DNA of 64,000 nucleotides from Terebella lapidaria (taxonomy: Eukaryota; Annelida; Polychaeta; Terebellida; Terebellidae): the NCBI GenBank assembly GCA_949152475.1, contig OX424567.1, positions 18,501,402-18,565,401 of the forward strand, given 5' to 3'. Both the position numbers and the translations under genes were made by a program. The notes below the pieces were generated by a model. The model was not told the origin of the DNA and made no database searches. It worked only from the letters and a program-made list of their open reading frames with translations. This document shows positions 18,747-59,998 of the stretch, one piece after another; the stretch's first letter is position 1, and each line of letters begins with the position of its first letter.

Positions 18747-18751
18747 AAAAT

Positions 18752-37431: not shown

Positions 37432-37514
37432 TGTAACAAAACCATGCAACTGCCGCGCTGAAACGTTCGTTAGGAACGGTCACGTGATCTACAAAGTCCA
37501 CTTGCGAAGACACC

Positions 37515-37737
37515 GTTCGCGGAAGAACCGTTCGCGGAAGCACGATTGCGGAAGCATCATCAGCGGAAGCATCGTTCGCGGAAGAACCGTTCGCGGAAGC
37601 ACGATTGCGGAAGCATCGTCAGCGGAAGCATCAGTCGCGGAAGCACCGTTCGCGGAAGAGGAGCCTTCGCGGAAGAACCGTTCGCGGACGCAGTCTTCAC
37701 CACGTGGAGAAGAGTGCGGAAGATACGTTCGCGGACG
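37515..37737 (+). promoter_or_regulatory. U3 array of GTTCGCGGAAG motifs (element A 5' LTR)
   Basis: About fourteen copies or variants (GTTCGCGGAAG, ATTGCGGAAG, TCAGCGGAAG, GTTCGCGGACG), mostly 14-15 bp apart, lie immediately upstream of the TATA box. This is the position of transcription-factor sites in an LTR. The core TTCGCGGAA has inverted half sites TTC and GAA around GCG and two CpGs. Confidence 0.8.
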
Positions 37738-37762
37738 AAGATGCGCGCGCAGCCACCCTGGC

Positions 37763-37770
37763 TATATAAG
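37763..37770 (+). promoter_or_regulatory. LTR TATA box (element A 5' LTR)
   Basis: TATATAAG just after the U3 array; transcription would start near 37793. The same site lies at 47834 in the 3' LTR, and at 50281 and 60330 in element B. Confidence 0.8.
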
Positions 37771-38329
37771 GGAGAGCGGACGGCCGCTCTGAGAGCACTG
37801 CAACAGCGACATCGACCGTGGGGAGATCGTCACCGCCACAGCCAAGGGACTCGACGAACTCCGTGCGGACGACTCCTTCTTCAGGGCCTTAGAGTCAACC
37901 GGGATTAGACCGACTACCTGGAGAAACCATTCGACTAAACGGGACGGGAAACTTCAACGGGAAGGGACAGAGAGACGCCGCCGGCTAAGAACTCTTTTTA
38001 GTTGTGCCCTCGTGCACTATTTATTTTTGAAATGTGATCATACAGTGCTCCATGTCTGAACTTCATATTTGTACGTCACGTGGGTGACCAGCCATACAAT
38101 TGTAAGTTGATTTGATGTATATAAATCTTCAATTTATTTACATCTGAGTTGCTTCTTGCCTAAGTGAAGCCGGTGAGCTACGGAGTGATGATACACCAGC
38201 GTTGGGGGACACCAATTTAGTGACGGCTCTCGAATCACAACGAGCGGGAGTTACATAAAGTCTATACGATCAGAGAAACCAGGTTTTTTGGGCCACACCG
38301 AAAACAAGTCATTACCAAACGTCACAACT

Positions 38330-38390: not shown

Positions 38391-40949
38391 ATGTCCGGCG
38401 AAAACGACGAAACTGCCCCAGGGAAGACAGGAGGTGAAGAGGAAGACTCTTCGCGGACGGCCTCACTTGCGGACGAGGAAGACAGCGGTTCGCGGAAGCC
38501 GACCTTTGCGGAAGAGGGAGACGACCGTTCGCGGAAGACGTTCGCGGAAGACGACCGTTCGCGGAAGACGTTCGCGGACGACAACCGTTCGCGGAAGACG
38601 ACCTTGGCGGAAGAGGCCGACGACCGTTCGCGGAAGACAACGTTCGCGGAAGACGACCGTTCGCGGAAGAGCAGCTTCACAGCCAGGGGTAGACGGGACG
38701 TTTCGACGAGTGAGGAGCAATCAGGGAGGTCGAGACCTTCCATGGGCCAGTCGACTAGTCAACAGAGACCCCGGAGCCAGACACCCGACAACCGTTTTCT
38801 TTTCAGACACGACTCTGGGTGGCAGCACGATCGAGACAGGGAGAGGTCAACCTACCTTGAGAGCGTTAGGAGGGGCCCCGAGTTCCGACGAGTGCTGGGA
38901 CCGGAGTACGTCAATCTGGACGGGGAGGACGGCGAAATCTGGGCGAGGAGGGATCGGCTACAGCTACCGGAGCAGAGTCCAAGTGTGGCACCTCCAGAGA
39001 ATGCAGCATTGAGACGGCTTTGGGACCAGTCCCAGCAGCAGTCTGGTGCAACAGAGCAGCAGTCTGGTGCAACAGGGCAGCGGTCGGGTGTGACGAGTCG
39101 ACAAACGGGAGTGACTGGAGGACGGGTTACTTGGGCTCCGACCCAAGAGAGCAGCTCGAGAGGGAGAGGACTTTTCGCGGAAGAGAACATTCGCGGACGA
39201 GAGGCATTCTTCGGCGACAGGGACGCTTGCAGCCGGGGATCCTTCGTGGATGAACGGGCTCGTGGGCGAGGGGGAGTCTTTGGTGACGAGGACGCTTGTG
39301 ACCGGGGAGGGCCCTTCGCGGACGACCACGTTCGCGGACGAGGACGACTCGCGGAAGAGAGTGTTCGCGGAAGAGAGGAGTCTTCACCCAGACGGCGGCT
39401 CGACGAAAGGAGTGATCCAGGCGACCAATCTTCCTTTCCAGTTTTTCAGAATAGACGGGGAAGACCATTCGCGGATGAGCCGGTTCGCGGAAGACTCGCG
39501 GAAGATGGCGTTCGCGGACGTGCATCTTTTGTGGAGGGACGTCTCCGAGACATCTTGGCGGACGAGCCCGTTCGCGGAAGACTCGCGGAAGACGGCGTTC
39601 GCGGAAGAGGCCTGTTCGCGGAAGAACTTCTTCGGGAGCTGTTGGCGGAAGAGTCCGTTCGCGGAAGGTTCGCGGAAGACAGTGTTCGCGGAGGGTTCGC
39701 GGAAGACAGCGTTCGCGGAAGAGGGAGGTCTTCACCCAGTCGACAACCGAGACAGCCAGCCTCCTGGAGAAATCCAGCTTCTATTTCAGTCACCCAGGGA
39801 GGCCGGAGACAGCACCCTTTCTCATCATCGGGCGATGAGGGGCCTTCATCTGATGGAGGGACCGACAGCAGCCATGGTTACCCAGGACGGGGGAGGAGAC
39901 CACCGAGGCGGGGACCGCCGCTGCACCGACGAAGCCCTAGGCCGAGACGGAGGCAGGAGGACTCGTCGTCCGAGGACAGCACAGCCTGGAATCAGAACGG
40001 CAGAAGGAACCGGAAGATGCTGACCCCTGACAAGTTCGATGGGACTTCCATAGAGTGGCCGGTGTACCGGGCCCACTTTGACGTCATCGCAGAGGTCAAC
40101 GGATGGAGCAAGCGGGAACAGGGCGTCTACTTAGCCGGGAGCTTGACAGGAGAGGCGCGACGAATGCTGACCAGCCTGAGTCCTGCAGACCGGAGGGACA
40201 TCGACGTTCTGACCGACAAGCTGACCCTACGATTCGACCCTGACTGTCAGGAGGAGTCCTACAAGGCGACCTTGGGACAAAGAACCCGCAGGAAGGCAGA
40301 GACACCCCAGCAGTACGGCTATGAGTTGCAGCGACTGGCCGGCCGTGGTTATCCGGATCTGAACTCCGCAGCTCAGGAGGCTATCGCCTTAGACCACTTC
40401 TGGAAGGGCCATCCAGATGGGGACATGAAGGTGATGGCGCTCATGAGGAAGATGAAGACCATGGAGGAGGCCATAGCGTTCGTGACCCAGTACGAATGTG
40501 TCAAACCCAAGCCTGGGAAGCCGGTAATGTCCATAGAGTCGGAGGACTCCGAGCCAGCTCTAGGACGGGTCCTACAGCTGTTGAAGAACCAGCAGGGAGG
40601 CGAGATTACCACCAGTGGGCAGCAGAGCAACCAGCCGAACGTAGCGGGTCTACCCAGACTTCCCTACTTCAAGGGGCTCTTTGAGAGCCAAGACAGGAAG
40701 CTGGATCGACTAATCGAGCTGTGTGAGCAGGTGCTATCCATCAAGCCGAGGGCCGCCACTGCTGAGAACAAGGGACCAAGCGCTAGGCCGGGACCAGATG
40801 ACTGTTGGTACTGTGGGAAGCCGGGTCATCGGAAGTACCAGTGTCCAGATCGGCCGCCACCTCGGACCAAGGAGGAGCGCTTGAGTCGACTAATCGAGGA
40901 GATTGGTGAGCGGAACAGTTTGACAGACGAGGTGTCGGAAAACCAGTAG
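38391..40949 (+). CDS. gag: Gag polyprotein of element A
   Basis: 852 residues from MSGENDET. The first ~540 residues are low-complexity and charged. They include two blocks (about 20-95 and 260-445) made from the same GTTCGCGGAAG motif that fills the promoters, read as SRK, FAE or VRG according to frame. Near residues 213-240 are four QQSGAT-type heptads. The Ty3-type capsid region starts near residue 543 (TPDKFDGTSIEWPVYRAHFD) and runs through YLAGSLTGEARRML and QRTRRKAETPQQYGYELQRL to about 700. One CCHC zinc knuckle (CWYCGKPGHRKYQC, residues 805-818) would bind RNA. It assembles particles around the RNA. This start is used because it is the first Met in frame here and is conserved in B. 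Confidence 0.93.
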   Translation: MSGENDETAPGKTGGEEEDSSRTASLADEEDSGSRKPTFAEEGDDRSRKTFAEDDRSRKTFADDNRSRKTTLAEEADDRSRKTTFAEDDRSRKSSFTARGRRDVSTSEEQSGRSRPSMGQSTSQQRPRSQTPDNRFLFRHDSGWQHDRDRERSTYLESVRRGPEFRRVLGPEYVNLDGEDGEIWARRDRLQLPEQSPSVAPPENAALRRLWDQSQQQSGATEQQSGATGQRSGVTSRQTGVTGGRVTWAPTQESSSRGRGLFAEENIRGREAFFGDRDACSRGSFVDERARGRGGVFGDEDACDRGGPFADDHVRGRGRLAEESVRGREESSPRRRLDERSDPGDQSSFPVFQNRRGRPFADEPVRGRLAEDGVRGRASFVEGRLRDILADEPVRGRLAEDGVRGRGLFAEELLRELLAEESVRGRFAEDSVRGGFAEDSVRGRGRSSPSRQPRQPASWRNPASISVTQGGRRQHPFSSSGDEGPSSDGGTDSSHGYPGRGRRPPRRGPPLHRRSPRPRRRQEDSSSEDSTAWNQNGRRNRKMLTPDKFDGTSIEWPVYRAHFDVIAEVNGWSKREQGVYLAGSLTGEARRMLTSLSPADRRDIDVLTDKLTLRFDPDCQEESYKATLGQRTRRKAETPQQYGYELQRLAGRGYPDLNSAAQEAIALDHFWKGHPDGDMKVMALMRKMKTMEEAIAFVTQYECVKPKPGKPVMSIESEDSEPALGRVLQLLKNQQGGEITTSGQQSNQPNVAGLPRLPYFKGLFESQDRKLDRLIELCEQVLSIKPRAATAENKGPSARPGPDDCWYCGKPGHRKYQCPDRPPPRTKEERLSRLIEEIGERNSLTDEVSENQ
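38447..38670 (+). repeat. GTTCGCGGAAG cluster 1 inside gag (element A)
   Basis: About a dozen copies or variants. Successive copies alternate between frames, encoding SRK and FAE/FAD in turn, so the DNA motif is preserved while the amino acids change. Confidence 0.85.
39171..39722 (+). repeat. GTTCGCGGAAG cluster 2 inside gag (element A)
   Basis: Roughly twenty copies or variants, mostly in a third frame (VRG, LAE) with spacing that is not uniform. It lies directly after the heptad repeats. Confidence 0.85.
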
Positions 40950-40972
40950 GGCTCATACCAGCCCCCAACCGT

Positions 40973-43900
40973 ATGGGCCATTGGCAGGTGTGTGCACGGC
41001 TTCACAGGCGAGAAGCTCGACGAAGACGTGAAGAACACATTGCCAGGGGGGAATTTTTAGTTTCACAGATTTTTAATAGGTTTTTCCGGTGTGCATCCGA
41101 AGTAACTGGATGGGCGCAGGAGGAGCTCGAGGATCGAATTCTCGACTATTTGGAGGGCAAGCCTGTCAACACAGACGGGAGTGCCAATGTACAGCAAACC
41201 GATGGAGCCGTGGAGCGTCTAATGCCCCGCGGAGACGTCAAGGAAATGCAGACCGATGGAGCCGTGGAGCGTCTAATGACCCGCGGAGACGTCGACGAAA
41301 TGCAGACCGATGGAGCCGTGGAGCGTCTGGGGACCCACGGAGACATCAACGAGGTTTCTGCTAGCAGCAAGGAGAACCAACAGGTTACAACCTTGAGGCT
41401 GGAGGCTGCGAAACAGCAGGGACCCCCCTATGCAACTGAACCACAAGCGGCCGTGAAAGAGGAGACGGAGGGCCGGTGGAGCGGAATGACCAAGGGGCCA
41501 GCGCAGCAGCTATTGCTGGTGGACGACTCATTACTTATCCGGAGCGGCGGTTCCGAGGGGAGTGATTCCCTTAAGACTGACAGAGAGGACCAGGGTGGTG
41601 CATCACTGTGGGTGGACGACTCAGTACTTATCCAGGGCGGCGTCCCTGAGGAGAGTGGCAGCTCTCTTAAGATTGACAGAAATGGCCAGGTGGTGTCGCT
41701 GTCAGCCGGTGCCCGAGGCACATTGGCGTGGTATGCGGCGTGCCACGTTATGGGGAAGGCGACTCGTATGTTGGTGGACACGGGTGCCTCTTCCACCGTT
41801 CTGGACGAGTGTCTCTTCGACCAAATGGATGACGAACATAAAGCAATGATAAGGCAGACGAGAATAAGGTTACGGGCAGCAACCGGAGACTACTTACAGG
41901 TTCAAGGAGAGATGACAGTTCAACTTCTACTGGGCACACGACTCGTGTCGGCAGATGTACTGGTAGCCAAACTAGGGATCCCGGGAGTGTTGGGGCTTGA
42001 TGTACTTCAACAGATTGGGGGACAGCTGGATCTGCGTAAGGGCGAGTGGCAGGTGGGCGACACTACCGTAGTGATGAGCTCGGGCCACGAGGGCGCCGTC
42101 TACACACTGGTGACGGAGGAGACGGTCGTCTTGCCACCCTTTTCAGAGATGATGGTGGACCTCAAGCTGACAGGAAGTGAGGGAGGAGTTCCGAAGGCCG
42201 GCCTCGTGCAGTCCGCAAGAGAGCCGTTGGAGGACGACCCCCTCGTAGTGGGACGAGCCCTGGTACGACCCCGAGGACGCCTGGTACCGGTGGTACTTCT
42301 GAACGCCGGCGCTGGAGCTTGCACTGTGCTGATGGGGACCATCCTAGCCGAGCTTCACGGAATAGAGGCCGTGATCGACCTGGGATTTCGTCCCGATGGA
42401 GGGAAAACAACCCAGAATGAACCTAAAAGGGAACAGTGGTACCGGGAGGAGAGCGGGAGGGAGCATGAGCCCCTTACACCAAACTCCACCAAGTGGCGGA
42501 ACCGGACGCCTGAGCAGCCCGAAACCAGAGTGCACGCCATGCACGCAGAATCGTCGACGAAGACACCAGAGTGCCCGGAGCATTTAGAACCGCTCCTGGA
42601 GGGAATGCATCCGAACTTGACGGAAAAGGAGGTGGAGGTCGTCAGCGATCTCCTTCGACGCCACCAGCAGGTCTTTATGGGACCAGATGGGAGGTTGGGC
42701 CGGACGTCCCTGGCGAAACACGTCATCGACACGGGAGATCACCCCCCGATCAAGCAGCCTCTGAGGAGAGCCCCGTACTACCAACAAGAGCTGATCGAGG
42801 ACGAGGTCGACAAGATGTTGAAAGCTGACGTTGTGGAGCCAAGTGACAGTCCATGGTCGTCTCCCATCGTGCTAGTGAAAAAGAAGGATGGTGCACTGAG
42901 ATTTTGCGTCGACTACCGCCGTCTAAATGATGTCACCCGGAAGGATGCGTACCCCCTGCCTCGAGTCGACGAGAGTTTTGATACCTTGTCAGGAGGACGA
43001 TATTTTTCGACGCTAGACTTGGCTAGTGGTTACTGGCAGGTCGAGATGGACGACAGGGACAAGGAGAAGACGGCGTTCACTACCCGTAGTGGACTCTATC
43101 AATTTAAAGTGATGCCGTTTGGATTGGCGACGGCCCCGGCTACTTTTGAACGTCTAATGGAGCTGGCACTGAGGGGACTCCAATGGAAGCGTTGTCTAAT
43201 TTATTTGGACGATGTCGTCTGTCTTGGAAAGACTTTCCAAGAAGCCGTGGACAACCTCGAGGACGTGTTCCGGAGACTGCAGGCTGCCGGGCTGAAGCTG
43301 AAACCCGCCAAGTGTGAGCTGTTTCGACAACAGGTCAACTTCCTGGGCCATGTCGTGTCCGACCGAGGCATCCAGTGCGACCCTGCCAAGGTCGAAGCTG
43401 TAACAAAAATGGTTCCTCCGACCACCTTGACAGAACTAAGGAGCTTCCTTGGGTTCGTGGGGTACTACCGCAGATTCATCCCTGACTTTGCCACCCGAGC
43501 GGGACCCCTCAACCACCTGTTAAAGAAGGAAGTCAACTACCATTGGAGCGAGGCTCATCAGCAGGCGTTCGAGGCGCTGCGTCAACCCCTGACCGAGCAC
43601 CCCCTGCTGGTGTACCCTGACATGGACCAAGAATTTATTTTAGATACTGATGCTAGCGGCTACGGAGTGGGAGGCGTCTTATCCCAAGTGCAGGACGGAC
43701 GAGAGCGGGTGATCGCCTATGCTTCCAGAACCCTGAGGGACACCCAGCGGAATTACTGCACCACCAAGCGGGAGCTCCTGGCCGTCGTCAGTATGATACA
43801 CCATTTCAGACATTTCTTGTGGGGGAGAGCGTTCTTACTACGAACCGACCACGCCTCTCTCAAGTGGCTACTGAACTTTCGGGATGCGGAAGGAATGATC

Positions 43901-46045
43901 GCTAGATGGGCAGCTCGCATCGCCAGCTACGCCTTCAGGTGTGAGGTCCGACCGGGAGTACAACACGGGAATGCAGACGGGATGTCCAGATGCCGACAGT
44001 GCCGGAGACCGGATTGTCCCGCCCCTCGCCACACCACAAGACCCGAAGGAGAAGAGGAGGCCTGTCCGACTCAGGAGGAGTGTCCCCTACCCCTGGAGGA
44101 CCTCTCTGACGAGGATCTGCTTCCACCGATCAGCGGAGAAGGATGGAGCCCCGGAGGACCTCAAGTTAACATCTTGCGGGAGGTCCCTGTGGAGCCCTGG
44201 ACGGAGGACTACTATTGCGGAGATGGAGTCGGGATATTCCAGATCTGGGAGGTGCGCTGCCAGGAGGACCCGAGGACGACTACCCAGCCGACCGAGGAAT
44301 GCCTGCCTGACCGGAGCCCCCCACAGACGGAGGAAGGAGCCAGGAGCGTCTGCAGAACCCTGCATCAGCTCCGCCCCTCTGCCTGGGTTTGGTTTCTCCT
44401 GATGATGCTCCTCGCACTGCATGGTTTGGGACCGGAGGTTGTGGCCGGAGCAGCGATCGGCGCGACGGCCGACGTGTGGATGCGCTGCCGAGAGGAGCCC
44501 TTCCTGGACCCATGCCCCAACCCTGTGCTCCGAGATCCAGACAAACAAATGCTAGCTGTCACGCGGGCTATGGCTACGGGAGGACGCCGGAATCCGATGG
44601 AGGGAGCCCCGGAGGCCCAGGTCCTGAATGGTTATTCCCAGGAGGACCTAGTGACCCTTCAACGAGCCGACCCTGAAGTTGGAGGCATCCTCGGGTGGAA
44701 GAATATTTTCACTGAGAGACCTGCATGGCCCGAAGTCAGAACAAAAAGTCAGCAAATGAAGACTCTGTGGCAACAGTGGGACCAGCTGGAGCTACGTGAT
44801 GGGCTTCTGTACCGGCGGTACCAAGCGGCTTGCCAGAACGCACCAATCCATCAACTGGTCGTTCCACAGGTCCTGAGACGCGCCGTCATGAAGGAGGTCC
44901 ACACCGGCAAGCTGATGAGCCACCAGGGAATCACCAAAACAGTCCACCGACTAAAAGCGAGAATGTACTGGCCGGGTATGACGAAGGACGTGGAGCGTTG
45001 GTGCCGGGAGTGCCTGAAGTGTAGTGGGAGAAAGCCGCGACCGGGGCCCAAGTACCACCCCATGGGAAATCTACCGGTAGGCGATCGGCTAGAAAGGGTG
45101 GCCATGGACATTTTGGAGCCTGGAACGATCACCAATTCTGGGAACCGGTATATACTGGTCGTGGGTGATTATTTCACCAAGTGGACTGAGGCCTACGCTC
45201 TACCCAACCATGAGGCTCAGACGGTGGCGGACGTCTTTGTGACTGAGTTCGTGTGCCGCCTGGGAATGCCAGCCAAGATACACACCGACCAGGGACGAGA
45301 GTTCGAGAGTAAGCTTTTCCTTGAGATGATCAAGATCCTAGGAGGGGAGAAGACTCGGACGACCCCTTATCACGCCAAATCAGACGGGATGGTCGAGCGA
45401 TTCAACCGGACCCTGCTGAACCTTCTGGCCGTGGTCGTGGACGAGAACCATGACGACTGGGACGACCATCTGCCCTACGTGATGGCGACTTATAGAACAT
45501 CAGTACACGAAAGCACCGGGTGTACACCATTTCGAATGATGATGGGACGGGAGGCAACCACCCCATTGGACCTGAGGTACCGGACGAAACCGGACGATTT
45601 GGGAGGACCAGTCCCCGAGTGTGCGTCCGAATACGTCGAATGGGTGAAGGAAGCCACCATACAAGCTCACGAGACTGCCCGAGAGTGCCTGAAGACGGCT
45701 ACGGTGCGACAAAAGCGCCATCATGACATAAAATCAGCCGCTCGACATTTTCCGGTGGGCACCTGGGTGATGTATTGGTACCCTCCAAAGGCTAGACCAA
45801 AACTAGGACTAGGGTGGACGGGACCTTATCTCGTTGTGAAGTCTCATCTCGGATGGATGGTGTCCATACAAGATCGACCCGGTGGCAAGATTAAAGATGT
45901 CCACATTGACAATATAAAAAGGTGCTGGTTCACCCCTGAAACCGACGCCTGGATACCCAATCCGGACGATGTGACCCCAGTCCGGACCCCCAGTGATGAC
46001 GAGGGACGAGTGGAAAACAGCGGGAATGCAGTCCAAACGATGTAA
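40973..46045 (+). CDS. pol: Pol polyprotein of element A (protease, RT, RNase H, integrase)
   Basis: 1690 residues from the first Met after the gag stop. Its frame is already open from 40910 and overlaps gag by 40 bases in the -1 frame. Residues 76-130 hold three 18-residue repeats (QTDGAVERL core), and about 180-235 two VDDS-LI repeats. The aspartic protease has DTGA at 269-272. RT has FSTLDLASGYWQVEM and YLDD at 744-747. RNase H has DTDASGYGVGG and TKRELLAV. A long linker (about 1020-1210) contains a hydrophobic stretch near 1136-1163. Integrase has an HHCC finger (about 1309-1349), Asp in VAMDI, then HTDQGREF and VERFN with D-35-E spacing, and a GPY module (WTGPYLVV). No chromodomain was seen. 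It copies the RNA and inserts the DNA. It looks intact. Confidence 0.95.
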   Translation: MGHWQVCARLHRREARRRREEHIARGEFLVSQIFNRFFRCASEVTGWAQEELEDRILDYLEGKPVNTDGSANVQQTDGAVERLMPRGDVKEMQTDGAVERLMTRGDVDEMQTDGAVERLGTHGDINEVSASSKENQQVTTLRLEAAKQQGPPYATEPQAAVKEETEGRWSGMTKGPAQQLLLVDDSLLIRSGGSEGSDSLKTDREDQGGASLWVDDSVLIQGGVPEESGSSLKIDRNGQVVSLSAGARGTLAWYAACHVMGKATRMLVDTGASSTVLDECLFDQMDDEHKAMIRQTRIRLRAATGDYLQVQGEMTVQLLLGTRLVSADVLVAKLGIPGVLGLDVLQQIGGQLDLRKGEWQVGDTTVVMSSGHEGAVYTLVTEETVVLPPFSEMMVDLKLTGSEGGVPKAGLVQSAREPLEDDPLVVGRALVRPRGRLVPVVLLNAGAGACTVLMGTILAELHGIEAVIDLGFRPDGGKTTQNEPKREQWYREESGREHEPLTPNSTKWRNRTPEQPETRVHAMHAESSTKTPECPEHLEPLLEGMHPNLTEKEVEVVSDLLRRHQQVFMGPDGRLGRTSLAKHVIDTGDHPPIKQPLRRAPYYQQELIEDEVDKMLKADVVEPSDSPWSSPIVLVKKKDGALRFCVDYRRLNDVTRKDAYPLPRVDESFDTLSGGRYFSTLDLASGYWQVEMDDRDKEKTAFTTRSGLYQFKVMPFGLATAPATFERLMELALRGLQWKRCLIYLDDVVCLGKTFQEAVDNLEDVFRRLQAAGLKLKPAKCELFRQQVNFLGHVVSDRGIQCDPAKVEAVTKMVPPTTLTELRSFLGFVGYYRRFIPDFATRAGPLNHLLKKEVNYHWSEAHQQAFEALRQPLTEHPLLVYPDMDQEFILDTDASGYGVGGVLSQVQDGRERVIAYASRTLRDTQRNYCTTKRELLAVVSMIHHFRHFLWGRAFLLRTDHASLKWLLNFRDAEGMIARWAARIASYAFRCEVRPGVQHGNADGMSRCRQCRRPDCPAPRHTTRPEGEEEACPTQEECPLPLEDLSDEDLLPPISGEGWSPGGPQVNILREVPVEPWTEDYYCGDGVGIFQIWEVRCQEDPRTTTQPTEECLPDRSPPQTEEGARSVCRTLHQLRPSAWVWFLLMMLLALHGLGPEVVAGAAIGATADVWMRCREEPFLDPCPNPVLRDPDKQMLAVTRAMATGGRRNPMEGAPEAQVLNGYSQEDLVTLQRADPEVGGILGWKNIFTERPAWPEVRTKSQQMKTLWQQWDQLELRDGLLYRRYQAACQNAPIHQLVVPQVLRRAVMKEVHTGKLMSHQGITKTVHRLKARMYWPGMTKDVERWCRECLKCSGRKPRPGPKYHPMGNLPVGDRLERVAMDILEPGTITNSGNRYILVVGDYFTKWTEAYALPNHEAQTVADVFVTEFVCRLGMPAKIHTDQGREFESKLFLEMIKILGGEKTRTTPYHAKSDGMVERFNRTLLNLLAVVVDENHDDWDDHLPYVMATYRTSVHESTGCTPFRMMMGREATTPLDLRYRTKPDDLGGPVPECASEYVEWVKEATIQAHETARECLKTATVRQKRHHDIKSAARHFPVGTWVMYWYPPKARPKLGLGWTGPYLVVKSHLGWMVSIQDRPGGKIKDVHIDNIKRCWFTPETDAWIPNPDDVTPVRTPSDDEGRVENSGNAVQTM

Positions 46046-46059
46046 ACGATGACGGGAGC

Positions 46060-46174
46060 GTTCGCGGAAGAACCGTTCGCGGAAGCAGCGTTCGCGGAAG
46101 CAGCGTTCGCGGAAGTACCGTTCGCGGAAGCACGTTCGCGGAAGCAGCGTTCGCGGAAGAACCGTTCGCGGAAG
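46060..46174 (+). promoter_or_regulatory. Eight-copy GTTCGCGGAAG array upstream of the third gene (element A)
   Basis: Eight perfect copies at 46060, 46075, 46090, 46105, 46120, 46134, 46149 and 46164, almost all 15 bp apart, start 15 bases after the pol stop. The array is outside any conserved coding region and ends about 70 bp before a TATA box. Confidence 0.9.
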
Positions 46175-46242
46175 CAAGCGAAAAACGTTATTTCGTTCCA
46201 CGACAATGCTTTTTCCCCCAGATCCCTGGTCCGCGCCTTTTC

Positions 46243-46273
46243 TATATAAGCAGGCCGGCCTACGATTCCGTCA
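46243..46273 (+). promoter_or_regulatory. Internal promoter of the third gene: TATA box and initiator (element A)
   Basis: TATATAAG at 46243-46250 lies 42 bases before the ATG. A TCATCAC initiator-like sequence places the predicted start at about 46273, giving a leader of some 12 bases. With the eight-copy array it mirrors the LTR promoter layout (array, then TATATAAG). Confidence 0.7.
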
Positions 46274-46284
46274 TCACTTCAACC

Positions 46285-47382
46285 ATGAACACACCAACTC
46301 TGCAGATCATTGAGATACCCGCATTTGCAGACGAAGATTTCGGGGACGTTCCAGATTTCGACTTGGCTGACTTTCTGCCCCTTGAAGTCGACAAGATGAG
46401 CGACCCACCTACCAAGATAGACAAGCCTGACCGGAAGCGGGAGCGCTCGAGGAGCCGGGAGCGTCGTGAGGAGCCCCGAGGAGGTCGACGGTCCCCTGCC
46501 CGGAAGTTGTCCACCGAGAGAGGGCGACGCTGGTGCAGCCCCTGCCGGATCCACGTGACGGCATCCAACTTTAGCCGACACGTGGCGACCAAACACACGC
46601 AGAAGGAGGGGCGGCACCTCTGCAAGATGTGCAGCCAGCGATTCGCCCGCCGAGCTGACAGAGACCGGCATGAGACGTCGCATGCCAGCGGCAACACCCT
46701 CAAGCCAGGACGGAGGAGGACGACGACCGACACGCCCGTGTCCGACCCCCGAGATGGTCCGACTACTGTGTCTGCCCCTGAGCTGAAGACTGTCAGCTTT
46801 GCGGCCAGCGGGACGACCAGCTCCACGCCGTCAAGCCCCCGGGAGGACGCCCCCAGGTCAGAGGACGCCCCAGACCCCGAGGACGACCCCCCGAATAGCG
46901 AAGAGGAACCGGAGTCTCAGCAGGAGCGGAGAGAGGCGGAATCCCCGGAGGCCCCCACCCCCGAGGACGACGGACCCCCCGTTCCCAGAGACTCGGCCCC
47001 TACCTACAAGCCCCTAGACCTGAGTTGGTACCTCAAGCCCGTTCCGGAGGAGGAGGACCAACTGCGACCGTATGTGGAGGGCCTGGGCAGAGCGGTCACT
47101 GCCGGAGAGAAGGCCCTGGAGGACCTGGCATCCACGATAGCCATGGGACGACGCCACCTCACCCAAGCGGAGGCTCGGCTCCAAGCCAAGGAGGAGCAGA
47201 GACAGCTCGAGGCCGAGGTGCTGCAGCTGCGAGGGGAGGCCTCTCAACGAGAGAAGAGCCACCGGAAGGAGCTGCGAGCCCACGTCCGAGAGACCAAGCT
47301 GCTCCGGGAACAGCTCCGAGCATATACAGACACTCGAGACAGGCTGGCGGAGACGTCCGAAAGCGAGGTGGATCGCCAGTGA
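46285..47382 (+). CDS. Third gene of element A: candidate zinc-finger transcription activator
   Basis: 365 residues in the slot where env would sit, but with no signal peptide or membrane span. Residues 10-35 are acidic and hydrophobic (DEDFGDVPDFDLADFL), like an activation domain. About 48-75 is Arg/Ser-rich and could be a nuclear signal. Two C2H2 fingers follow: C84, C87, H99, H104 and C113, C116, H129, H133. About 140-260 is Pro/acidic and disordered. About 262-360 is a long heptad-rich coiled coil (ARLQAKEEQRQLEAEVLQL) suited to dimerisation. The gene has its own TATA box and motif array. A DNA-binding regulator of the element is the simplest reading; an RNA-binding or silencing-suppressor role remains possible. 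The predicted protein looks the same in B. Confidence 0.8.
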   Translation: MNTPTLQIIEIPAFADEDFGDVPDFDLADFLPLEVDKMSDPPTKIDKPDRKRERSRSRERREEPRGGRRSPARKLSTERGRRWCSPCRIHVTASNFSRHVATKHTQKEGRHLCKMCSQRFARRADRDRHETSHASGNTLKPGRRRTTTDTPVSDPRDGPTTVSAPELKTVSFAASGTTSSTPSSPREDAPRSEDAPDPEDDPPNSEEEPESQQERREAESPEAPTPEDDGPPVPRDSAPTYKPLDLSWYLKPVPEEEDQLRPYVEGLGRAVTAGEKALEDLASTIAMGRRHLTQAEARLQAKEEQRQLEAEVLQLRGEASQREKSHRKELRAHVRETKLLREQLRAYTDTRDRLAETSESEVDRQ

Positions 47383-47433
47383 AGTGGAGGGAGAGAGCCC
47401 TGTAAACATCAGACAGGCAGGAAAAGACGAAGA

Positions 47434-47502
47434 AGGAGGAAGAAGAGAAAAGAAGAGAGAGAAAGGATCAACGGGGACGTTGATCTCCAGAAAGGGTGGA
47501 GT
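47434..47502 (+). promoter_or_regulatory. Purine-rich stretch and polypurine tract of element A
   Basis: A long A/G stretch (47434-47468) is followed by AGAAAGGGTGGAGT (47489-47502), which directly abuts the 3' LTR start and is the expected plus-strand primer. Confidence 0.75.
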
Positions 47503-48397
47503 TGTAACAAAACCATGCAACTGCCGCGCTGAAACGTTCGTTAGGAACGGTCACGTGATCTACAAAGTCCACTTGCGAAGACACCGTTCGCGGAAGAACC
47601 GTTCGCGGAAGCACGATTGCGGAAGCATCATCAGCGGAAGCATCGTTCGCGGAAGAACCGTTCGCGGAAGCACGATTGCGGAAGCATCGTCAGCGGAAGC
47701 ATCAGTCGCGGAAGCACCGTTCGCGGAAGAGGAGCCTTCGCGGAAGAACCGTTCGCGGACGCAGTCTTCACCACGTGGAGAAGAGTGCGGAAGATACGTT
47801 CGCGGACGAAGATGCGCGCGCAGCCACCCTGGCTATATAAGGGAGAGCGGACGGCCGCTCTGAGAGCACTGCAACAGCGACATCGACCGTGGGGAGATCG
47901 TCACCGCCACAGCCAAGGGACTCGACGAACTCCGTGCGGACGACTCCTTCTTCAGGGCCTTAGAGTCAACCGGGATTAGACCGACTACCTGGAGAAACCA
48001 TTCGACTAAACGGGACGGGAAACTTCAACGGGAAGGGACAGAGAGACGCCGCCGGCTAAGAACTCTTTTTAGTTGTGCCCTCGTGCACTATTTATTTTTG
48101 AAATGTGATCATACAGTGCTCCATGTCTGAACTTCATATTTGTACGTCACGTGGGTGACCAGCCATACAATTGTAAGTTGATTTGATGTATATAAATCTT
48201 CAATTTATTTACATCTGAGTTGCTTCTTGCCTAAGTGAAGCCGGTGAGCTACGGAGTGATGATACACCAGCGTTGGGGGACACCAATTTAGTGACGGCTC
48301 TCGAATCACAACGAGCGGGAGTTACATAAAGTCTATACGATCAGAGAAACCAGGTTTTTTGGGCCACACCGAAAACAAGTCATTACCAAACGTCACA
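47503..48397 (+). repeat. 3' LTR of element A
   Basis: 895 bp, no differences from 37432-38326 seen on reading, including G at 48246. It contains the motif array (47586-47808) and TATA box (47834). Confidence 0.95.
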
Positions 48398-49949: not shown

Positions 49950-50844
49950 TGTAACAAAACCATGCAACTGCCGCGCTGAAACGTTCGTTAGGAACGGTCA
50001 CGTGATCTACAAAGTCCACTTGCGAAGACACCGTTCGCGGAAGAACCGTTCGCGGAAGCACGATTGCGGAAGCATCATCAGCGGAAGCATCGTTCGCGGA
50101 AGAACCGTTCGCGGAAGCACGATTGCGGAAGCATCGTCAGCGGAAGCATCAGTCGCGGAAGCACCGTTCGCGGAAGAGGAGCCTTCGCGGAAGAACCGTT
50201 CGCGGACGCAGTCTTCACCACGTGGAGAAGAGTGCGGAAGATACGTTCGCGGACGAAGATGCGCGCGCAGCCACCCTGGCTATATAAGGGAGAGCGGACG
50301 GCCGCTCTGAGAGCACTGCAACAGCGACATCGACCGTGGGGAGATCGTCACCGCCACAGCCAAGGGACTCGACGAACTCCGTGCGGACGACTCCTTCTTC
50401 AGGGCCTTAGAGTCAACCGGGATTAGACCGACTACCTGGAGAAACCATTCGACTAAACGGGACGGGAAACTTCAACGGGAAGGGACAGAGAGACGCCGCC
50501 GGCTAAGAACTCTTTTTAGTTGTGCCCTCGTGCACTATTTATTTTTGAAATGTGATCATACAGTGCTCCATGTCTGAACTTCATATTTGTACGTCACGTG
50601 GGTGACCAGCCATACAATTGTAAGTTGATTTGATGTATATAAATCTTCAATTTATTTACATCTGAGTTGCTTCTTGCCTAAGTGAAGCCGGTAAGCTACG
50701 GAGTGATGATACACCAGCGTTGGGGGACACCAATTTAGTGACGGCTCTCGAATCACAACGAGCGGGAGTTACATAAAGTCTATACGATCAGAGAAACCAG
50801 GTTTTTTGGGCCACACCGAAAACAAGTCATTACCAAACGTCACA
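49950..50844 (+). repeat. 5' LTR of element B
   Basis: 895 bp with the same ends and TATA box (50281-50288) as in A. The motif array lies at 50033-50255. Confidence 0.95.
50033..50255 (+). promoter_or_regulatory. U3 GTTCGCGGAAG array of element B 5' LTR
   Basis: Same copies and spacing as in A. No changes in the motif copies were seen. Confidence 0.8.
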
Positions 50845-50847
50845 ACT

Positions 50848-50860
50848 TGGTGCCGTGACC
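50848..50860 (+). promoter_or_regulatory. Primer-binding site of element B (tRNA-His)
   Basis: TGGTGCCGTGACC starts three bases after the LTR. The first 12 bases are complementary to the acceptor end of animal tRNA-His including CCA. Confidence 0.75.
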
Positions 50861-50907
50861 AGGATCCCCGAGGGTCTACTGCCAGGGAACGAACTTCAGC
50901 ATCACTC

Positions 50908-53445
50908 ATGTCCGGCGAAAACGACGAAACTGCCCCAGGGAAGACAGGAGGTGAAGAGGAAGACTCTTCGCGGACGGCCTCACTTGCGGACGAGGAAGAC
51001 AGCGGTTCGCGGAAGCCGACCTTTGCGGAAGAGGGAGACGACCGTTCGCGGAAGACGTTCGCGGAAGACGACCGTTCGCGGAAGACGTTCGCGGACGACA
51101 ACCGTTCGCGGAAGACGACCTTGGCGGAAGAGGCCGACGACCGTTCGCGGAAGACAACGTTCGCGGAAGACGACCGTTCGCGGAAGAGCAGCTTCACAGC
51201 CAGGGGTAGACGGGACGTTTCGACGAGTGAGGAGCAACCAGGGAGGTCGAGACCTTCCATGGGCCAGTCGACGAGTCAACAGAGACCCCGGAGCCAGACA
51301 CCCGACAACCGTTTTCTTTTCAGACACGACTCTGGGTGGCAGCACGATCGAGACAGGGAGAGGTCAACCTACCTTGAGAGCGTTAGGAGGGGCCCCGAGT
51401 TCCGACGAGTGCTGGGACCGGAGTACGTCAATCTGGACGGGGAGGACGGCGAAATCTGGGCGAGGAGGGATCGGCTACAGCTACCGGAGCAGAGTCCAAG
51501 TGTGGCACCTCCAGAGAATGCAGCATTGAGACGGCTTTGGGACCAGTCCCAGCAGCAGTCTGGTGCAACAGGGAAGCGGTCTGGTGTGATGAGTCGACAA
51601 ACGGGAGTGACTGGAGGACGGGTTACTTGGGCTCCGACCCAAGAGAGCAGCTCGAGAGGGAGAGGACTTTTCGCGGAAGAGAACATTCGCGGACGAGAGG
51701 CATTCTTCGGCGACAGGGACGCTTGCAGCCGGGGATCCTTCGTGGATGAACGGGCTCGTGGGCGAGGGGGAGTCTTTGGTGACGAGGACGCTTGTGACCG
51801 GGGAGGGCCCTTCGCGGACGACCACGTTCGCGGACGAGGACGACTCGCGGAAGAGAGTGTTCGCGGAAGAGAGGAGTCTTCACCCAGACGGCGGCTCGAC
51901 GAAAGGAGTGATCCAGGCGACCAATCTTCCTTTCCAGTTTTTCAGAATAGACGGGGAAGACCATTCGCGGATGAGCCGGTTCGCGGAAGACTCGCGGAGG
52001 ATGGCGTTCGCGGACGTGCATCTTTTGTGGAGGGACGTCTCCGAGACATCTTGGCGGACGAGCCCGTTCGCGGAAGACTCGCGGAAGACGGCGTTCGCGG
52101 AAGAGGCCTGTTCGCGGAAGAACTTCTTCGGGAGCTGTTGGCGGAGGAGTCCGTTCGCGGAAGGTTCGCGGAAGACAGTGTTCGCGGAGGGTTCGCGGAA
52201 GACAGCGTTCGCGGAAGAGGGAGGTCTTCACCCAGTCGACAACCGAGACAGCCAGCCTCCTGGAGAAATCCAGCTTCTATTTCAGTCACCCAGGGAGGCC
52301 GGAGACAGCACCCTTTCTCATCATCGGGCGATGAGGGGCCTTCATCTGATGGAGGGACCGACAGCAGCCATGGTTACCCAGGACGGGGGAGGAGACCACC
52401 GAGGCGGGGACCGCCGCTGCACCGACGAAGCCCTAGGCCGAGACGGAGGCAGGAGGACTCGTCGTCCGAGGACAGCACAGCCTGGAATCAGAACGGCAGA
52501 AGGAACCGGAAGATGCTGACCCCTGACAAGTTCGATGGGACTTCCATAGAGTGGCCGGTGTACCGGGCCCACTTTGACGTCATCGCAGAGGTCAACGGAT
52601 GGAGCAAGCGTGAACAGGGCGTCTACTTAGCCGGGAGCTTGACAGGAGAGGCGCGACGAATGCTGACCAGCCTGAGTCCTGCAGACCGGAGGGACATCGA
52701 CGTTCTGACCGACAAGCTGACCCTACGATTCGACCCTGACTGTCAGGAGGAGTCCTACAAGGCGACCTTGGGACAAAGAACCCGCAGGAAGGCAGAGACA
52801 CCCCAGCAGTACGGCTATGAGTTGCAGCGACTGGCCGGCCGTGGTTATCCGGATCTGAACTCCGCAGCTCAGGAGGCTATCGCCTTAGACCACTTCTGGA
52901 AGGGCCATCCAGATGGGGACATGAAGGTGATGGCGCTCATGAGGAAGATGAAGACCATGGAGGAGGCCATAGCGTTCGTGACCCAGTACGAATGTGTCAA
53001 ACCCAAGCCTGGGAAGCCGGTAATGTCCATAGAGTCGGAGGACTCCGAGCCAGCTCTAGGACGGGTCCTACAGCTGTTGAAGAACCAGCAGGGAGGCGAG
53101 ATTACCACCAGTGGGCAGCAGAGCAACCAGCCGAACGTAGCGGGTCTACCCAGACTTCCCTACTTCAAGGGGCTCTTTGAGAGCCAAGACAGGAAGCTGG
53201 ATCGACTAATCGAGCTGTGTGAGCAGGTGCTATCCATCAAGCCGAGGGCCGCCACTGCTGAGAACAAGGGACCAAGCGCTAGGCCGGGACCAGATGACTG
53301 TTGGTACTGTGGGAAGCCGGGTCATCGGAAGTACCAGTGTCCAGATCGGCCGCCACCTCGGACCAAGGAGGAGCGCTTGAGTCGACTAATCGAGGAGATT
53401 GGTGAGCGGAACAGTTTGACAGACGAGGTGTCGGAAAACCAGTAG
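50908..53445 (+). CDS. gag: Gag polyprotein of element B
   Basis: 845 residues from MSGENDET. The frame stays open upstream to 50806 because B lacks the extra base present in A, but that stretch crosses the LTR end and primer site, so the internal Met shared with A is preferred. It has three rather than four QQSGAT-type heptads. The capsid region and CCHC knuckle are as in A. A few residue changes exist (for example EEQPGRS for EEQSGRS). The motif clusters lie at 50964-51187 and 51667-52218. Confidence 0.92.
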   Translation: MSGENDETAPGKTGGEEEDSSRTASLADEEDSGSRKPTFAEEGDDRSRKTFAEDDRSRKTFADDNRSRKTTLAEEADDRSRKTTFAEDDRSRKSSFTARGRRDVSTSEEQPGRSRPSMGQSTSQQRPRSQTPDNRFLFRHDSGWQHDRDRERSTYLESVRRGPEFRRVLGPEYVNLDGEDGEIWARRDRLQLPEQSPSVAPPENAALRRLWDQSQQQSGATGKRSGVMSRQTGVTGGRVTWAPTQESSSRGRGLFAEENIRGREAFFGDRDACSRGSFVDERARGRGGVFGDEDACDRGGPFADDHVRGRGRLAEESVRGREESSPRRRLDERSDPGDQSSFPVFQNRRGRPFADEPVRGRLAEDGVRGRASFVEGRLRDILADEPVRGRLAEDGVRGRGLFAEELLRELLAEESVRGRFAEDSVRGGFAEDSVRGRGRSSPSRQPRQPASWRNPASISVTQGGRRQHPFSSSGDEGPSSDGGTDSSHGYPGRGRRPPRRGPPLHRRSPRPRRRQEDSSSEDSTAWNQNGRRNRKMLTPDKFDGTSIEWPVYRAHFDVIAEVNGWSKREQGVYLAGSLTGEARRMLTSLSPADRRDIDVLTDKLTLRFDPDCQEESYKATLGQRTRRKAETPQQYGYELQRLAGRGYPDLNSAAQEAIALDHFWKGHPDGDMKVMALMRKMKTMEEAIAFVTQYECVKPKPGKPVMSIESEDSEPALGRVLQLLKNQQGGEITTSGQQSNQPNVAGLPRLPYFKGLFESQDRKLDRLIELCEQVLSIKPRAATAENKGPSARPGPDDCWYCGKPGHRKYQCPDRPPPRTKEERLSRLIEEIGERNSLTDEVSENQ

Positions 53446-53468
53446 GGCTCATACCAGCCCCCAACCGT

Positions 53469-56400
53469 ATGGGCCATTGGCAGGTGTGTGCACGGCTTCA
53501 CAGGCGAGAAGCTCGACGAAGACGTGAAGAACACATTGCCAGGGGGGAATTTTTAGTTTCACAGATTTTTAATAGGTTTTTCCGGTGTGCATCCGAAGTA
53601 ACTGGATGGGCGCAGGAGGAGCTCGAGGATCGAATTCTCGACTATTTGGAGGGCAAGCCTGTCAACACAGACGGGAGTGCCAATGTACAGCAAACCGATG
53701 GAGCCGTGGAGCGTCTAATGCCCCGCGGAGACGTCAAGGAAATGCAGACCGATGGAGCCGTGGAGCGTCTAATGACCCGCGGAGACGTCGACGAAATGCA
53801 GACTGATGGAGCCGTGGAGCGTCTGGGGACCCACGGAGACATCAACGAGGTTTCTGCTAGCAGCAAGGAGAACCAACAGGTTACAACCTTGAGGCTGGAG
53901 GCTGCGAAACAGCAGGGACCCCCCTATGCAACTGAACCACAAGCGGCCGTGAAAGAGGAGACGGAGGGCCGGTGGAGCGGAATGACCAAGGGGCCAGCGC
54001 AGCAGCTATTGCTGGTGGACGACTCATTACTTATCCGGAGCGGCGGTTCCGAGGGGAGTGATTCCCTTAAGACTGACAGAGAGGACCAGGGTGGTGCATC
54101 ACTGTGGGTGGACGACTCAGTACTTATCCAGGGCGGCGTCCCTGAGGAGAGTGGCAGCTCTCTTAAGATTGACAGAAATGGCCAGGTGGTGTCGCTGTCA
54201 GCCGGTGCCCGAGGCACATTGGCGTGGTATGCGGCGTGCCACGTTATGGGGAAGGCGACTCGTATGTTGGTGGACACGGGTGCCTCTTCCACCGTTCTGG
54301 ACGAGTGTCTCTTCGACCAAATGGATGACGAACATAAAGCAATGATAAGGCAGACGAGAATAAGGTTACGGGCAGCAACCGGAGACTACTTACAGGTTCA
54401 AGGAGAGATGACAGTTCAACTTCTACTGGGCACACGACTCGTGTCGGCAGATGTACTGGTAGCCAAACTAGGGATCCCGGGAGTGTTGGGGCTTGATGTA
54501 CTTCAACAGATTGGGGGACAGCTGGATCTGCGTAAGGGCGAGTGGCAGGTGGGCGACACTACCGTAGTGATGAGCGCGGGCCACGAGGACGCCGTCTACA
54601 CACTGGTGACGGAGGAGACGGTCGTCTTGCCACCCTTTTCAGAGATGATGGTGGACCTCAAGCTGACAGGAAGTGAGGGAGGAGTTCCGAAGGCCGGCCT
54701 CGTGCAGTCCGCAAGAGAGCCGTTGGAGGACGACCCCCTCGTAGTGGGACGAGCCCTGGTACGACCCCGAGGACGCCTGGTACCGGTGGTACTTCTGAAC
54801 GCCGGCGCTGGAGCTTGCACTGTGCTGATGGGGACCATCCTAGCCGAGCTTCACGGAATAGAGGCCGTGATCGACCTGGGATTTCGTCCCGATGGAGGGA
54901 AAACAACCCAGAATGAACCTAAAAGGGAACAGTGGTACCGGGAGGAGAGCGGGAGGGAGCATGAGCCCCTTACACCAAACTCCACCAAGTGGCGGAACCG
55001 GACGCCTGAGCAGCCCGAAACCAGAGTGCACGCCATGCACGCAGAATCGTCGACGAAGACACCAGAGTGCCCGGAGCATTTAGAACCGCTCCTGGAGGGA
55101 ATGCATCCGAACTTGACGGAAAAGGAGGTGGAGGTCGTCAGCGATCTCCTTCGACGCCACCAGCAGGTCTTTATGGGACCAGATGGGAGGTTGGGCCGGA
55201 CGTCCCTGGCGAAACACGTCATCGACACGGGAGATCACCCCCCGATCAAGCAGCCTCTGAGGAGAGCCCCGTACTACCAACAAGAGCTGATCGAGGACGA
55301 GGTCGACAAGATGTTGAAAGCTGACGTTGTGGAGCCAAGTGACAGTCCATGGTCGTCTCCCATCGTGCTAGTGAAAAAGAAGGATGGTGCACTGAGATTT
55401 TGCGTCGACTACCGCCGTCTAAATGATGTCACCCGGAAGGATGCGTACCCCCTGCCTCGAGTCGACGAGAGTTTTGATACCTTGTCAGGAGGACGATATT
55501 TTTCGACGCTAGACTTGGCTAGTGGTTACTGGCAGGTCGAGATGGACGACAGGGACAAGGAGAAGACGGCGTTCACTACCCGTAGTGGACTCTATCAATT
55601 TAAAGTGATGCCGTTTGGATTGGCGACGGCCCCGGCTACTTTTGAACGTCTAATGGAGCTGGCACTGAGGGGACTCCAATGGAAGCGTTGTCTAATTTAT
55701 TTGGACGATGTCGTCTGTCTTGGAAAGACTTTCCAAGAAGCCGTGGACAACCTCGAGGACGTGTTCCGGAGACTGCAGGCTGCCGGGCTGAAGCTGAAAC
55801 CCGCCAAGTGTGAGCTGTTTCGACAACAGGTCAACTTCCTGGGCCATGTCGTGTCCGACCGAGGCATCCAGTGCGACCCTGCCAAGGTCGAAGCTGTAAC
55901 AAAAATGGTTCCTCCGACCACCTTGACAGAACTAAGGAGCTTCCTTGGGTTCGTGGGGTACTACCGCAGATTCATCCCTGACTTTGCCACCCGAGCGGGA
56001 CCCCTCAACCACCTGTTAAAGAAGGAAGTCAACTACCATTGGAGCGAGGCTCATCAGCAGGCGTTCGAGGCGCTGCGTCAACCCCTGACCGAGCACCCCC
56101 TGCTGGTGTACCCTGACATGGACCAAGAATTTATTTTAGATACTGATGCTAGCGGCTACGGAGTGGGAGGCGTCTTATCCCAAGTGCAGGACGGACGAGA
56201 GCGGGTGATCGCCTATGCTTCCAGAACCCTGAGGGACACCCAGCGGAATTACTGCACCACCAAGCGGGAGCTCCTGGCCGTCGTCGGTATGATACACCAT
56301 TTCAGACATTTCTTGTGGGGGAGAGCGTTCTTACTACGAACCGACCACGCCTCTCTCAAGTGGCTACTGAACTTTCGGGATGCGGAAGGAATGATCGCTA

Positions 56401-58541: not shown

Positions 58542-58555
58542 ACGATGACGGGAGC

Positions 58556-58670
58556 GTTCGCGGAAGAACCGTTCGCGGAAGCAGCGTTCGCGGAAGCAGC
58601 GTTCGCGGAAGTACCGTTCGCGGAAGCACGTTCGCGGAAGCAGCGTTCGCGGAAGAACCGTTCGCGGAAG
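58556..58670 (+). promoter_or_regulatory. Eight-copy GTTCGCGGAAG array upstream of the third gene (element B)
   Basis: Identical in number and spacing to the array in A. Confidence 0.9.
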
Positions 58671-58738
58671 CAAGCGAAAAACGTTATTTCGTTCCACGAC
58701 AATGCTTTTTCCCCCAGATCCCTGGTCCGCGCCTTTTC

Positions 58739-58769
58739 TATATAAGCAGGCCGGCCTACGATTCCGTCA
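58739..58769 (+). promoter_or_regulatory. Internal promoter of the third gene (element B)
   Basis: TATATAAG at 58739-58746 and a TCATCAC initiator about 30 bases from the TATA start, unchanged from A. Confidence 0.7.
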
Positions 58770-58780
58770 TCACTTCAACC

Positions 58781-59878
58781 ATGAACACACCAACTCTGCA
58801 GATCATTGAGATACCCGCATTTGCAGACGAAGATTTCGGGGACGTTCCAGATTTCGACTTGGCTGACTTTCTGCCCCTTGAAGTCGACAAGATGAGCGAC
58901 CCACCTACCAAGATAGACAAGCCTGACCGGAAGCGGGAGCGCTCGAGGAGCCGGGAGCGTCGTGAGGAGCCCCGAGGAGGTCGACGGTCCCCTGCCCGGA
59001 AGTTGTCCACCGAGAGAGGGCGACGCTGGTGCAGCCCCTGCCGGATCCACGTGACGGCATCCAACTTTAGCCGACACGTGGCGACCAAACACACGCAGAA
59101 GGAGGGGCGGCACCTCTGCAAGATGTGCAGCCAGCGATTCGCCCGCCGAGCTGACAGAGACCGGCATGAGACGTCGCATGCCAGCGGCAACACCCTCAAG
59201 CCAGGACGGAGGAGGACGACGACCGACACGCCCGTGTCCGACCCCCGAGATGGTCCGACTACTGTGTCTGCCCCTGAGCTGAAGACTGTCAGCTTTGCGG
59301 CCAGCGGGACGACCAGCTCCACGCCGTCAAGCCCCCGGGAGGACGCCCCCAGGTCAGAGGACGCCCCAGACCCCGAGGACGACCCCCCGAATAGCGAAGA
59401 GGAACCGGAGTCTCAGCAGGAGCGGAGAGAGGCGGAATCCCCGGAGGCCCCCACCCCCGAGGACGACGGACCCCCCGTTCCCAGAGACTCGGCCCCTACC
59501 TACAAGCCCCTAGACCTGAGTTGGTACCTCAAGCCCGTTCCGGAGGAGGAGGACCAACTGCGACCGTATGTGGAGGGCCTGGGCAGAGCGGTCACTGCCG
59601 GAGAGAAGGCCCTGGAGGACCTGGCATCCACGATAGCCATGGGACGACGCCACCTCACCCAAGCGGAGGCTCGGCTCCAAGCCAAGGAGGAGCAGAGACA
59701 GCTCGAGGCCGAGGTGCTGCAGCTGCGAGGGGAGGCCTCTCAACGAGAGAAGAGCCACCGGAAGGAGCTGCGAGCCCACGTCCGAGAGACCAAGCTGCTC
59801 CGGGAACAGCTCCGAGCATATACAGACACTCGAGACAGGCTGGCGGAGACGTCCGAAAGCGAGGTGGATCGCCAGTGA
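58781..59878 (+). CDS. Third gene of element B: candidate zinc-finger transcription activator
   Basis: 365 residues; I noticed no difference from the protein of A. Acidic N-terminus, basic segment, two C2H2 fingers (84-104 and 113-133) and C-terminal coiled coil are all kept. Conservation of an open frame together with its promoter in two separate insertions supports a working gene. Confidence 0.8.
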   Translation: MNTPTLQIIEIPAFADEDFGDVPDFDLADFLPLEVDKMSDPPTKIDKPDRKRERSRSRERREEPRGGRRSPARKLSTERGRRWCSPCRIHVTASNFSRHVATKHTQKEGRHLCKMCSQRFARRADRDRHETSHASGNTLKPGRRRTTTDTPVSDPRDGPTTVSAPELKTVSFAASGTTSSTPSSPREDAPRSEDAPDPEDDPPNSEEEPESQQERREAESPEAPTPEDDGPPVPRDSAPTYKPLDLSWYLKPVPEEEDQLRPYVEGLGRAVTAGEKALEDLASTIAMGRRHLTQAEARLQAKEEQRQLEAEVLQLRGEASQREKSHRKELRAHVRETKLLREQLRAYTDTRDRLAETSESEVDRQ

Positions 59879-59929
59879 AGTGGAGGGAGAGAGCCCTGTA
59901 AACATCAGACAGGCAGGAAAAGACGAAGA

Positions 59930-59998
59930 AGGAGGAAGAAGAGAAAAGAAGAGAGAGAAAGGATCAACGGGGACGTTGATCTCCAGAAAGGGTGGAGT
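59930..59998 (+). promoter_or_regulatory. Purine-rich stretch and polypurine tract of element B
   Basis: Same arrangement as in A. AGAAAGGGTGGAGT (59985-59998) abuts the 3' LTR. Confidence 0.75.

Follow-up and report, generated by a model that had tools for sequence, protein, structure and literature searches.

The 64-kb window, the whole stretch of DNA that was analyzed, contains two complete Ty3/gypsy retrotransposons in the same orientation (37432-48397 and 49950-60893; Table 1). Their assignment to Ty3/gypsy follows from LTRs of the form TG...CA, a short target-site duplication and the order protease-RT-RNase H-integrase; gag and pol were scanned with Pfam in element 1. The 895-bp LTRs are identical within each element, and a single base differs between those of element 1 and those of element 2. 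Element 1 is flanked on both sides by CTTT and element 2 on both sides by AAAC, and these different duplications together with the near-identical LTRs indicate two recent, separate insertions. Element 2 is 22 bp shorter than element 1, and the repeat spacings show that 21 of those 22 bp are missing from its gag. The primer-binding site just inside the 5′ LTR, which resembles the 3′ end of animal tRNA-His, shows a one-base length difference between the two elements; no tRNA genes were found in the 64-kb window. Early pol carries 54-bp tandem repeats (41131-41352) in about three copies in both elements, some with GCGGA inside them, and the pol translation includes a hydrophobic stretch (SAWVWFLLMMLLALHGLG...) between RNase H and integrase that is odd for pol. 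The host DNA holds a satellite-like array of ~21-bp, TTCGTTATCTCGAAT-like units at 22157-22640. Long inverted repeats at 16882-18747, with arms of 262 and 308 bp that are 91-94% complementary, are perhaps foldback or MITE-like, and a weak match to a Tc3-type transposase helix-turn-helix on the minus strand (6573-7055), under the Pfam cut-off, was the sole match among five flanking frames.

Table 1. Positions in the window of the genes, repeats and predicted features of the two elements.
Feature	Positions	Strand	Remarks
5′ LTR, element 1	37432..38326	+	895 bp, identical to 47503-48397
U3 array	37514..37737	+	14 sites, mostly 14-17 bp spacing; GCGGA 14/14
CTATATAAG, likely TATA box of LTR promoter	37762..37770	+	behind U3 array
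gag	38391..40949	+	852 codons; zinc knuckle slightly under Pfam cut-off
gag array	38448..39721	+	37 site-like stretches, 34 exact GCGGA in region; three reading frames
pol	40973..46045	+	1690 codons; protease, RT, RNase H, integrase by Pfam
Array before gene 3, element 1	46059..46174	+	8 sites, 14-15 bp spacing
CTATATAAG, likely TATA box of internal promoter	46242..46250	+	34 bases before gene 3 ATG
Gene 3, element 1	46285..47382	+	365 codons, ATG to stop; predicted activator
Acidic N-terminus, candidate activation domain	46285..46410	+	residues 1-42; relaxed published rule passed, strict rule failed
Two C2H2 fingers	46534..46683	+	residues 84-133; helices TASNFSR and RRADRDR
Predicted long helix, probable coiled coil	47053..47376	+	residues 257-364; AlphaFold2 single sequence
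3′ LTR, element 1	47503..48397	+	identical to 5′ LTR
Element 2	49950..60893	+	sibling; LTRs 49950-50844 and 59999-60893; AAAC duplication
Array before gene 3, element 2	58555..58670	+	CTATATAAG at 58738-58746
Gene 3, element 2	58781..59878	+	DNA identical to element 1 gene 3

In Ty3/gypsy elements that have a third gene, an envelope gene is more usual there. The original prediction had described an intact 365-codon frame after pol in both siblings, which is what we find (gene 3; Table 1), and had held that its product has no signal peptide or membrane span and is not an envelope. Hydropathy and Pfam both bear this out: the highest mean of any 19-residue Kyte-Doolittle window in the protein is 0.52, so a membrane span is absent, and no envelope family was among its Pfam matches at E up to 1. 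An envelope role for gene 3 was therefore rejected. The acidic N-terminus and the basic stretch proposed from the sequence are also present, with 11 acidic and 1 basic residue and several Phe and Leu in residues 1-42, and 16 basic and 7 acidic residues in 43-80.

The claim of two well-formed C2H2 fingers proved a little generous. Finger 2, C-x2-C-x12-H-x3-H, fits the C2H2 pattern C-x2-4-C-x12-H-x3-5-H, but finger 1, C-x2-C-x11-H-x4-H, has a loop one residue under the usual 12. Pfam finger models match the gene 3 protein, but under their cut-offs. The closest solved structures by sequence are cellular or engineered fingers, including the two-finger domain of Tramtrack (2drp, E 0.001) and the Zif268 variants DSNR (E 0.0058) and RADR (1a1i, E 0.013). 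A single-sequence AlphaFold2 model has a mean pLDDT of 64 and places a single helix at residues 257-364, with block means of 91-97 over residues 271-360. The C-terminal coiled coil of the original prediction thus stands as a predicted long helix, which we infer to be a coiled coil. A Foldseek search against the PDB returned 31 matches, the best with an E of 1.2 and none meaningful.

Elements 1 and 2 each contain 38 copies of the near-palindrome TTCGCGGAA, those of element 1 all on the plus strand, and the remainder of the window contains one more. The expectation is 0.05 (dinucleotide model, one strand of element 1), and the array is far beyond chance. All 62 occurrences of GCGGAA in element 1 lie on the coding strand. 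The U3 sites were collected with a tolerance of 4 mismatches over 12 positions. All 14 sites retain GCGGA as well as the G two places on, whereas the three bases of the preceding TTC are retained in 10/14, 11/14 and 9/14; the sixth base is A in 12 sites and C in 2. Counting only the 12 distinct copies leaves the core without variation. Deviating cells number 0 of 70 for the core, against 16 of 70 for the five bases upstream of it. Nine stretches were collected before gene 3, eight of them with GCGGA. Since the TTC half varies in U3, the word was taken as GCGGA(A/C)G and not as the near-palindrome. TTCGCGGAA can be likened by consensus to STAT and E2F sites; a STAT- or E2F-like reading was rejected on the same variation of the TTC half.

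Within gag the word falls in all three frames (19, 11, and 7 sites) and encodes peptides such as FAE, VRG, and SRK. At fourfold-degenerate third positions of the gag core, 53 of 54 carry the word's base, where 14.5 would be expected from the element's other codons. Treating the copies as independent gives a tail probability of 4e-31, which cannot be taken literally for copies that derive from one another by duplication. The sharing of the same silent choices by three frames with different peptides stands.

In C2H2 proteins, the 5′ triplet is contacted by the C-terminal finger. Counting helix positions back from the first His of each finger gives the contacts (-1, 2, 3, 6) T-S-N-R for finger 1 and R-A-D-R for finger 2. 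A Zif268 finger with R-A-D-R binds GCGT with a Kd of 0.035 nM, GCAC with 0.068 nM, and GACC with 9.3 nM, as listed in Table 1 of PMC3002361. The Asn3/Arg6 pair of finger 1 is found in modules for GAA and GAT in Table 2 of PMC9705829, where the module order runs reverse to the site, and in a module for GAC in PMC5260015. Finger 1 should read GAN. With finger 2 on GCG, finger 1 on GAN and the C-terminal finger on the 5′ triplet, the predicted site is 5′-GCG-GAN-3′. The match between word and fingers is not a blind one, as the array was known before the fingers were read. Sixteen of the 1024 possible 5-mers would match the 12-base consensus of the array on one strand or the other. With a single LTR counted, the plus strand of the element has 72 GCGGA (19.8 expected), which puts the word third among the 1024 5-mers there; 56 of the 72 fall within the three arrays, and the opposite strand has 4. 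The order GANGCG, with the fingers reversed, was rejected as not enriched (13 vs 21.1 expected in the same one-LTR element). That the gene 3 protein would bind the arrays of its own element specifically is well supported by sequence.

The array is followed by CTATATAAG in the same layout in the LTR and before gene 3, in both elements. The 9.2 kb that separate the two LTRs in element 1 contain CTATATAAG once, against 0.004 expected in first-order Markov sequences, and a transcript probably starts behind this copy. The original prediction that the protein binds repeated sites in the element's own promoters survives in part: the predicted site coincides with the conserved core of the arrays and lies before two likely TATA boxes, but the whole near-palindrome is not retained as the site.

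Relatives were drawn from the 120 matches listed of 1949 proteins found with the integrase part of pol, and third regions in frame with pol were scanned for fingers. Paired C2H2 fingers after integrase were present in P0011 and P0071 among these 120 listed matches of 1949, P0011 with fingers similar to those of gene 3 and the more distant P0071 with a pair in the same place; five more of the 120 listed have single C2H2 pattern matches, none behind integrase. Like gene 3, both have two C2H2 fingers after integrase joined by an 8-residue linker; unlike gene 3, the fingers are in one frame with pol. The finger region of P0011 matches gene 3 at an E of 6e-5 and shares the finger 1 shape C-x2-C-x11-H-x4-H. 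Its contacts are DRNR and RADR, so that R-A-D-R recurs at finger 2 and the predicted site is again GCG-GAN. Between integrase and fingers, P0011 also has a 21-bp-period repeat, with Ala-Glu 11 times in a row at a 7-residue (21-bp) spacing, and residues 1401-1600 contain AE 14 times, with 2.0 expected. Because Ala-Glu is encoded by GCN-GAR, the DNA of P0011, which is known here from the protein alone, may hold GCGGA(A/G). The fit is less good at the sixth base of the word. This is mostly A in our element, where Thr at -1 in finger 1 would sooner suggest T, and Asp at -1 in finger 1 of P0011 would sooner suggest C; the sixth base thus breaks simple recognition rules in both, which counts against the proposed match. 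P0071 has the contacts SEQR and SHNQ, which predict a site other than that of gene 3, AANGAN. Its fingers match those of P0011 at an E of 6e-8, in a very small search space, and those of gene 3 at an E of 0.22, which is not significant.

Tandem peptide repeats were sought behind integrase in the 94 relatives with a long enough tail, with the element's own gag (P0002) set aside and 26 of the 120 dropped (19 with short tails, 7 without the anchor motif). Such repeats are present in P0004, P0007, and P0008 and, at lower integrase identity, in P0037 and P0062. The tail repeats of the first three (NKEP.., SGSSGDSA.., and S[AD]LR at a 15-bp period) occupy the same place as the array before gene 3, and are perhaps the site arrays of other elements.

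Wider searches returned little. In the protein database, searches with the whole gene 3 protein (E up to 1) and with residues 72-140 (E up to 10) matched only the query itself. Candidates there must have 5-residue words in common with the query, and P0011 is kept out by its length, so distant relatives can be missed. Viral contigs gave no match for gene 3, the RT-RNase H piece or the integrase alignment; the array pattern was found there in 4 stretches, in which words were counted and a finger pattern was looked for. In prokaryote genomes, the integrase alignment found 4 loci in metagenome bins. One of these, from a bacterial metagenome bin, is a distant gypsy-like element (L006) with a third frame of 1051 codons behind pol (6915-10070). 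A dense short array was not found in it, and the case is ambiguous; the other three (L005, L007, and L008) were examined by a scan for fingers and words.

We consider it probable that the two-finger protein of gene 3 binds the GCGGA(A/C)G arrays of the LTR, its own promoter and gag, likely activating both promoters. The fingers would bind the words before the likely TATA boxes of the LTR and gene 3, and also those within gag. The acidic N-terminus would recruit the transcription machinery, while the long helix would pair proteins bound at neighbouring sites. Through the internal promoter, gene 3 would be under positive feedback, with the gag array as a possible enhancer lying within transcribed sequence. 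An alternative or additional effect of the same binding could be to protect the CpG-rich arrays from silencing. Of these actions activation is the most likely, since the sites lie before two TATA boxes, one of them gene 3's own, and the N-terminus is acidic.

We infer activation, dimerisation, and feedback, and activation is the weakest step of the explanation. Strict and relaxed rules for activation domains were taken from PMC10550315. None of the 327 gene 3 tiles passes the strict rule, which is missed by a single count; 22 of 2000 shuffled versions of gene 3 pass it. The relaxed rule is passed by 12 of 327 tiles, all N-terminal; it is also passed somewhere by 402 of 2000 shuffled versions and by a pol stretch (20/1652 tiles). 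The third region of P0011 has 0 of 1041 passing tiles and that of P0071 has 1 of 301.

The nearest alternative to activation, and one that may be part of the same thing, is that the protein binds the arrays for anti-silencing, keeping copies of its own element open or free of methylation, in the manner of Arabidopsis VANC. The sites are indeed in tandem arrays, also far from promoters within gag, and the word contains CpGs; VANC targets, too, are often tandem repeats that vary between related elements, according to PMC5735166. However, dense arrays in front of two TATA boxes, together with an N-terminus that is acidic, suit an activator at least equally, and the VANC domains DUF1985 and DUF287 are absent from the Pfam matches, so that we give this reading some weight while judging it unlikely. 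The protein might also bind as an autorepressor, or brake on copy number. A gene under its own target array could equally form a negative feedback loop and the strict activation-domain rule was missed, but the N-terminus is acidic and rich in Phe and Leu, and three large arrays would seem costly for a pure brake; such a role appears quite improbable.

Other readings take the arrays away from the gene 3 protein. They could serve as enhancers to which a host protein, for instance one of the ETS factors, binds, the fit with the gene 3 fingers being luck. The ETS core is GGAA, and its presence inside the word, which suits host ETS factors too, counts against our proposal: GGAA is found in 44 of the 56 exact-GCGGA sites of the three arrays, including 20 of the 22 that belong to the promoter arrays, and the share of 5-mers that would fit the array consensus (16/1024, as above) also leans this way. 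Against a host factor, GGA is followed by C, G or T in 12 of the 56 sites (U3 2/14, gag 10/34, before gene 3 0/8), and in P0011, R-A-D-R contacts again go together with a GCN-GAR repeat. We hold a host enhancer to be unlikely. The confinement of all 62 GCGGAA to the coding strand would agree with the word acting as RNA, in packaging or translation, and its commonest form can fold into a CCG-UUCG-CGG hairpin. The 3-bp stem and UUCG loop are possible in just 17 of 56 sites, though, and U3 retains GCGGA where stem and loop are gone, which leaves this reading very improbable. There is as slight a chance that the arrays are neutral products of slippage. Tandem Repeats Finder does report periodic arrays of 13-17 bp and multiples, and duplication makes copies alike, but three separate arrays have different spacings and a core that is kept while the flanks vary, and silent positions are kept in three reading frames.

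Retroelements with their own transcription activator are, to our knowledge, known mainly from complex retroviruses. The case is evenly balanced that this is an animal Ty3/gypsy lineage with a private circuit, consisting of its own zinc-finger activator and matching word arrays in the LTR, the internal promoter and, in three frames, gag, in which fingers and word would change together so that each family switches on only itself. A Ty3/gypsy element that lets both its activator and its target word be read from sequence would amount to a natural, self-contained code pair of protein and DNA, and related elements would be replicate experiments on the joint evolution of finger specificity and site arrays. 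It would also account for a capsid gene built from one DNA word in three frames.

As a layout, the system would work like foamy virus Tas or VANC, and the gene 3 protein matches neither family in Pfam: the four Pfam matches include no family of the Tas/Bel-1 type. Among titles and abstract openings in the literature, in which subscription journals are thinly covered, no gypsy element with a self-encoded C2H2 activator was found, which is not proof of absence. Among solved structures, the fingers of the protein are closest to cellular or engineered proteins that are not retroelement genes, with the SNFxR helix of Tramtrack finger 1, a two-finger pair as in Tramtrack, and the R-A-D-R (RADR) contact residues of Zif268 variants. 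VANC of the Arabidopsis VANDAL transposons, as described in PMC5735166, acts on short words in tandem repeats of its own element, and gene 3 likewise encodes an element's own protein alongside tandem short words. Unlike gene 3, VANC comes from a plant DNA transposon and has other domains; VANC acts by loss of DNA methylation. Foamy virus Tas (Bel-1) is a DNA-binding protein with sites in the LTR and an internal promoter, according to PMC8670036. Gene 3 is set apart from Tas by its C2H2 fingers, its dense uniform arrays, its sites through gag and an element without env, and resembles it in its position after pol, its apparent internal promoter and its predicted sites in both LTR and internal promoter.
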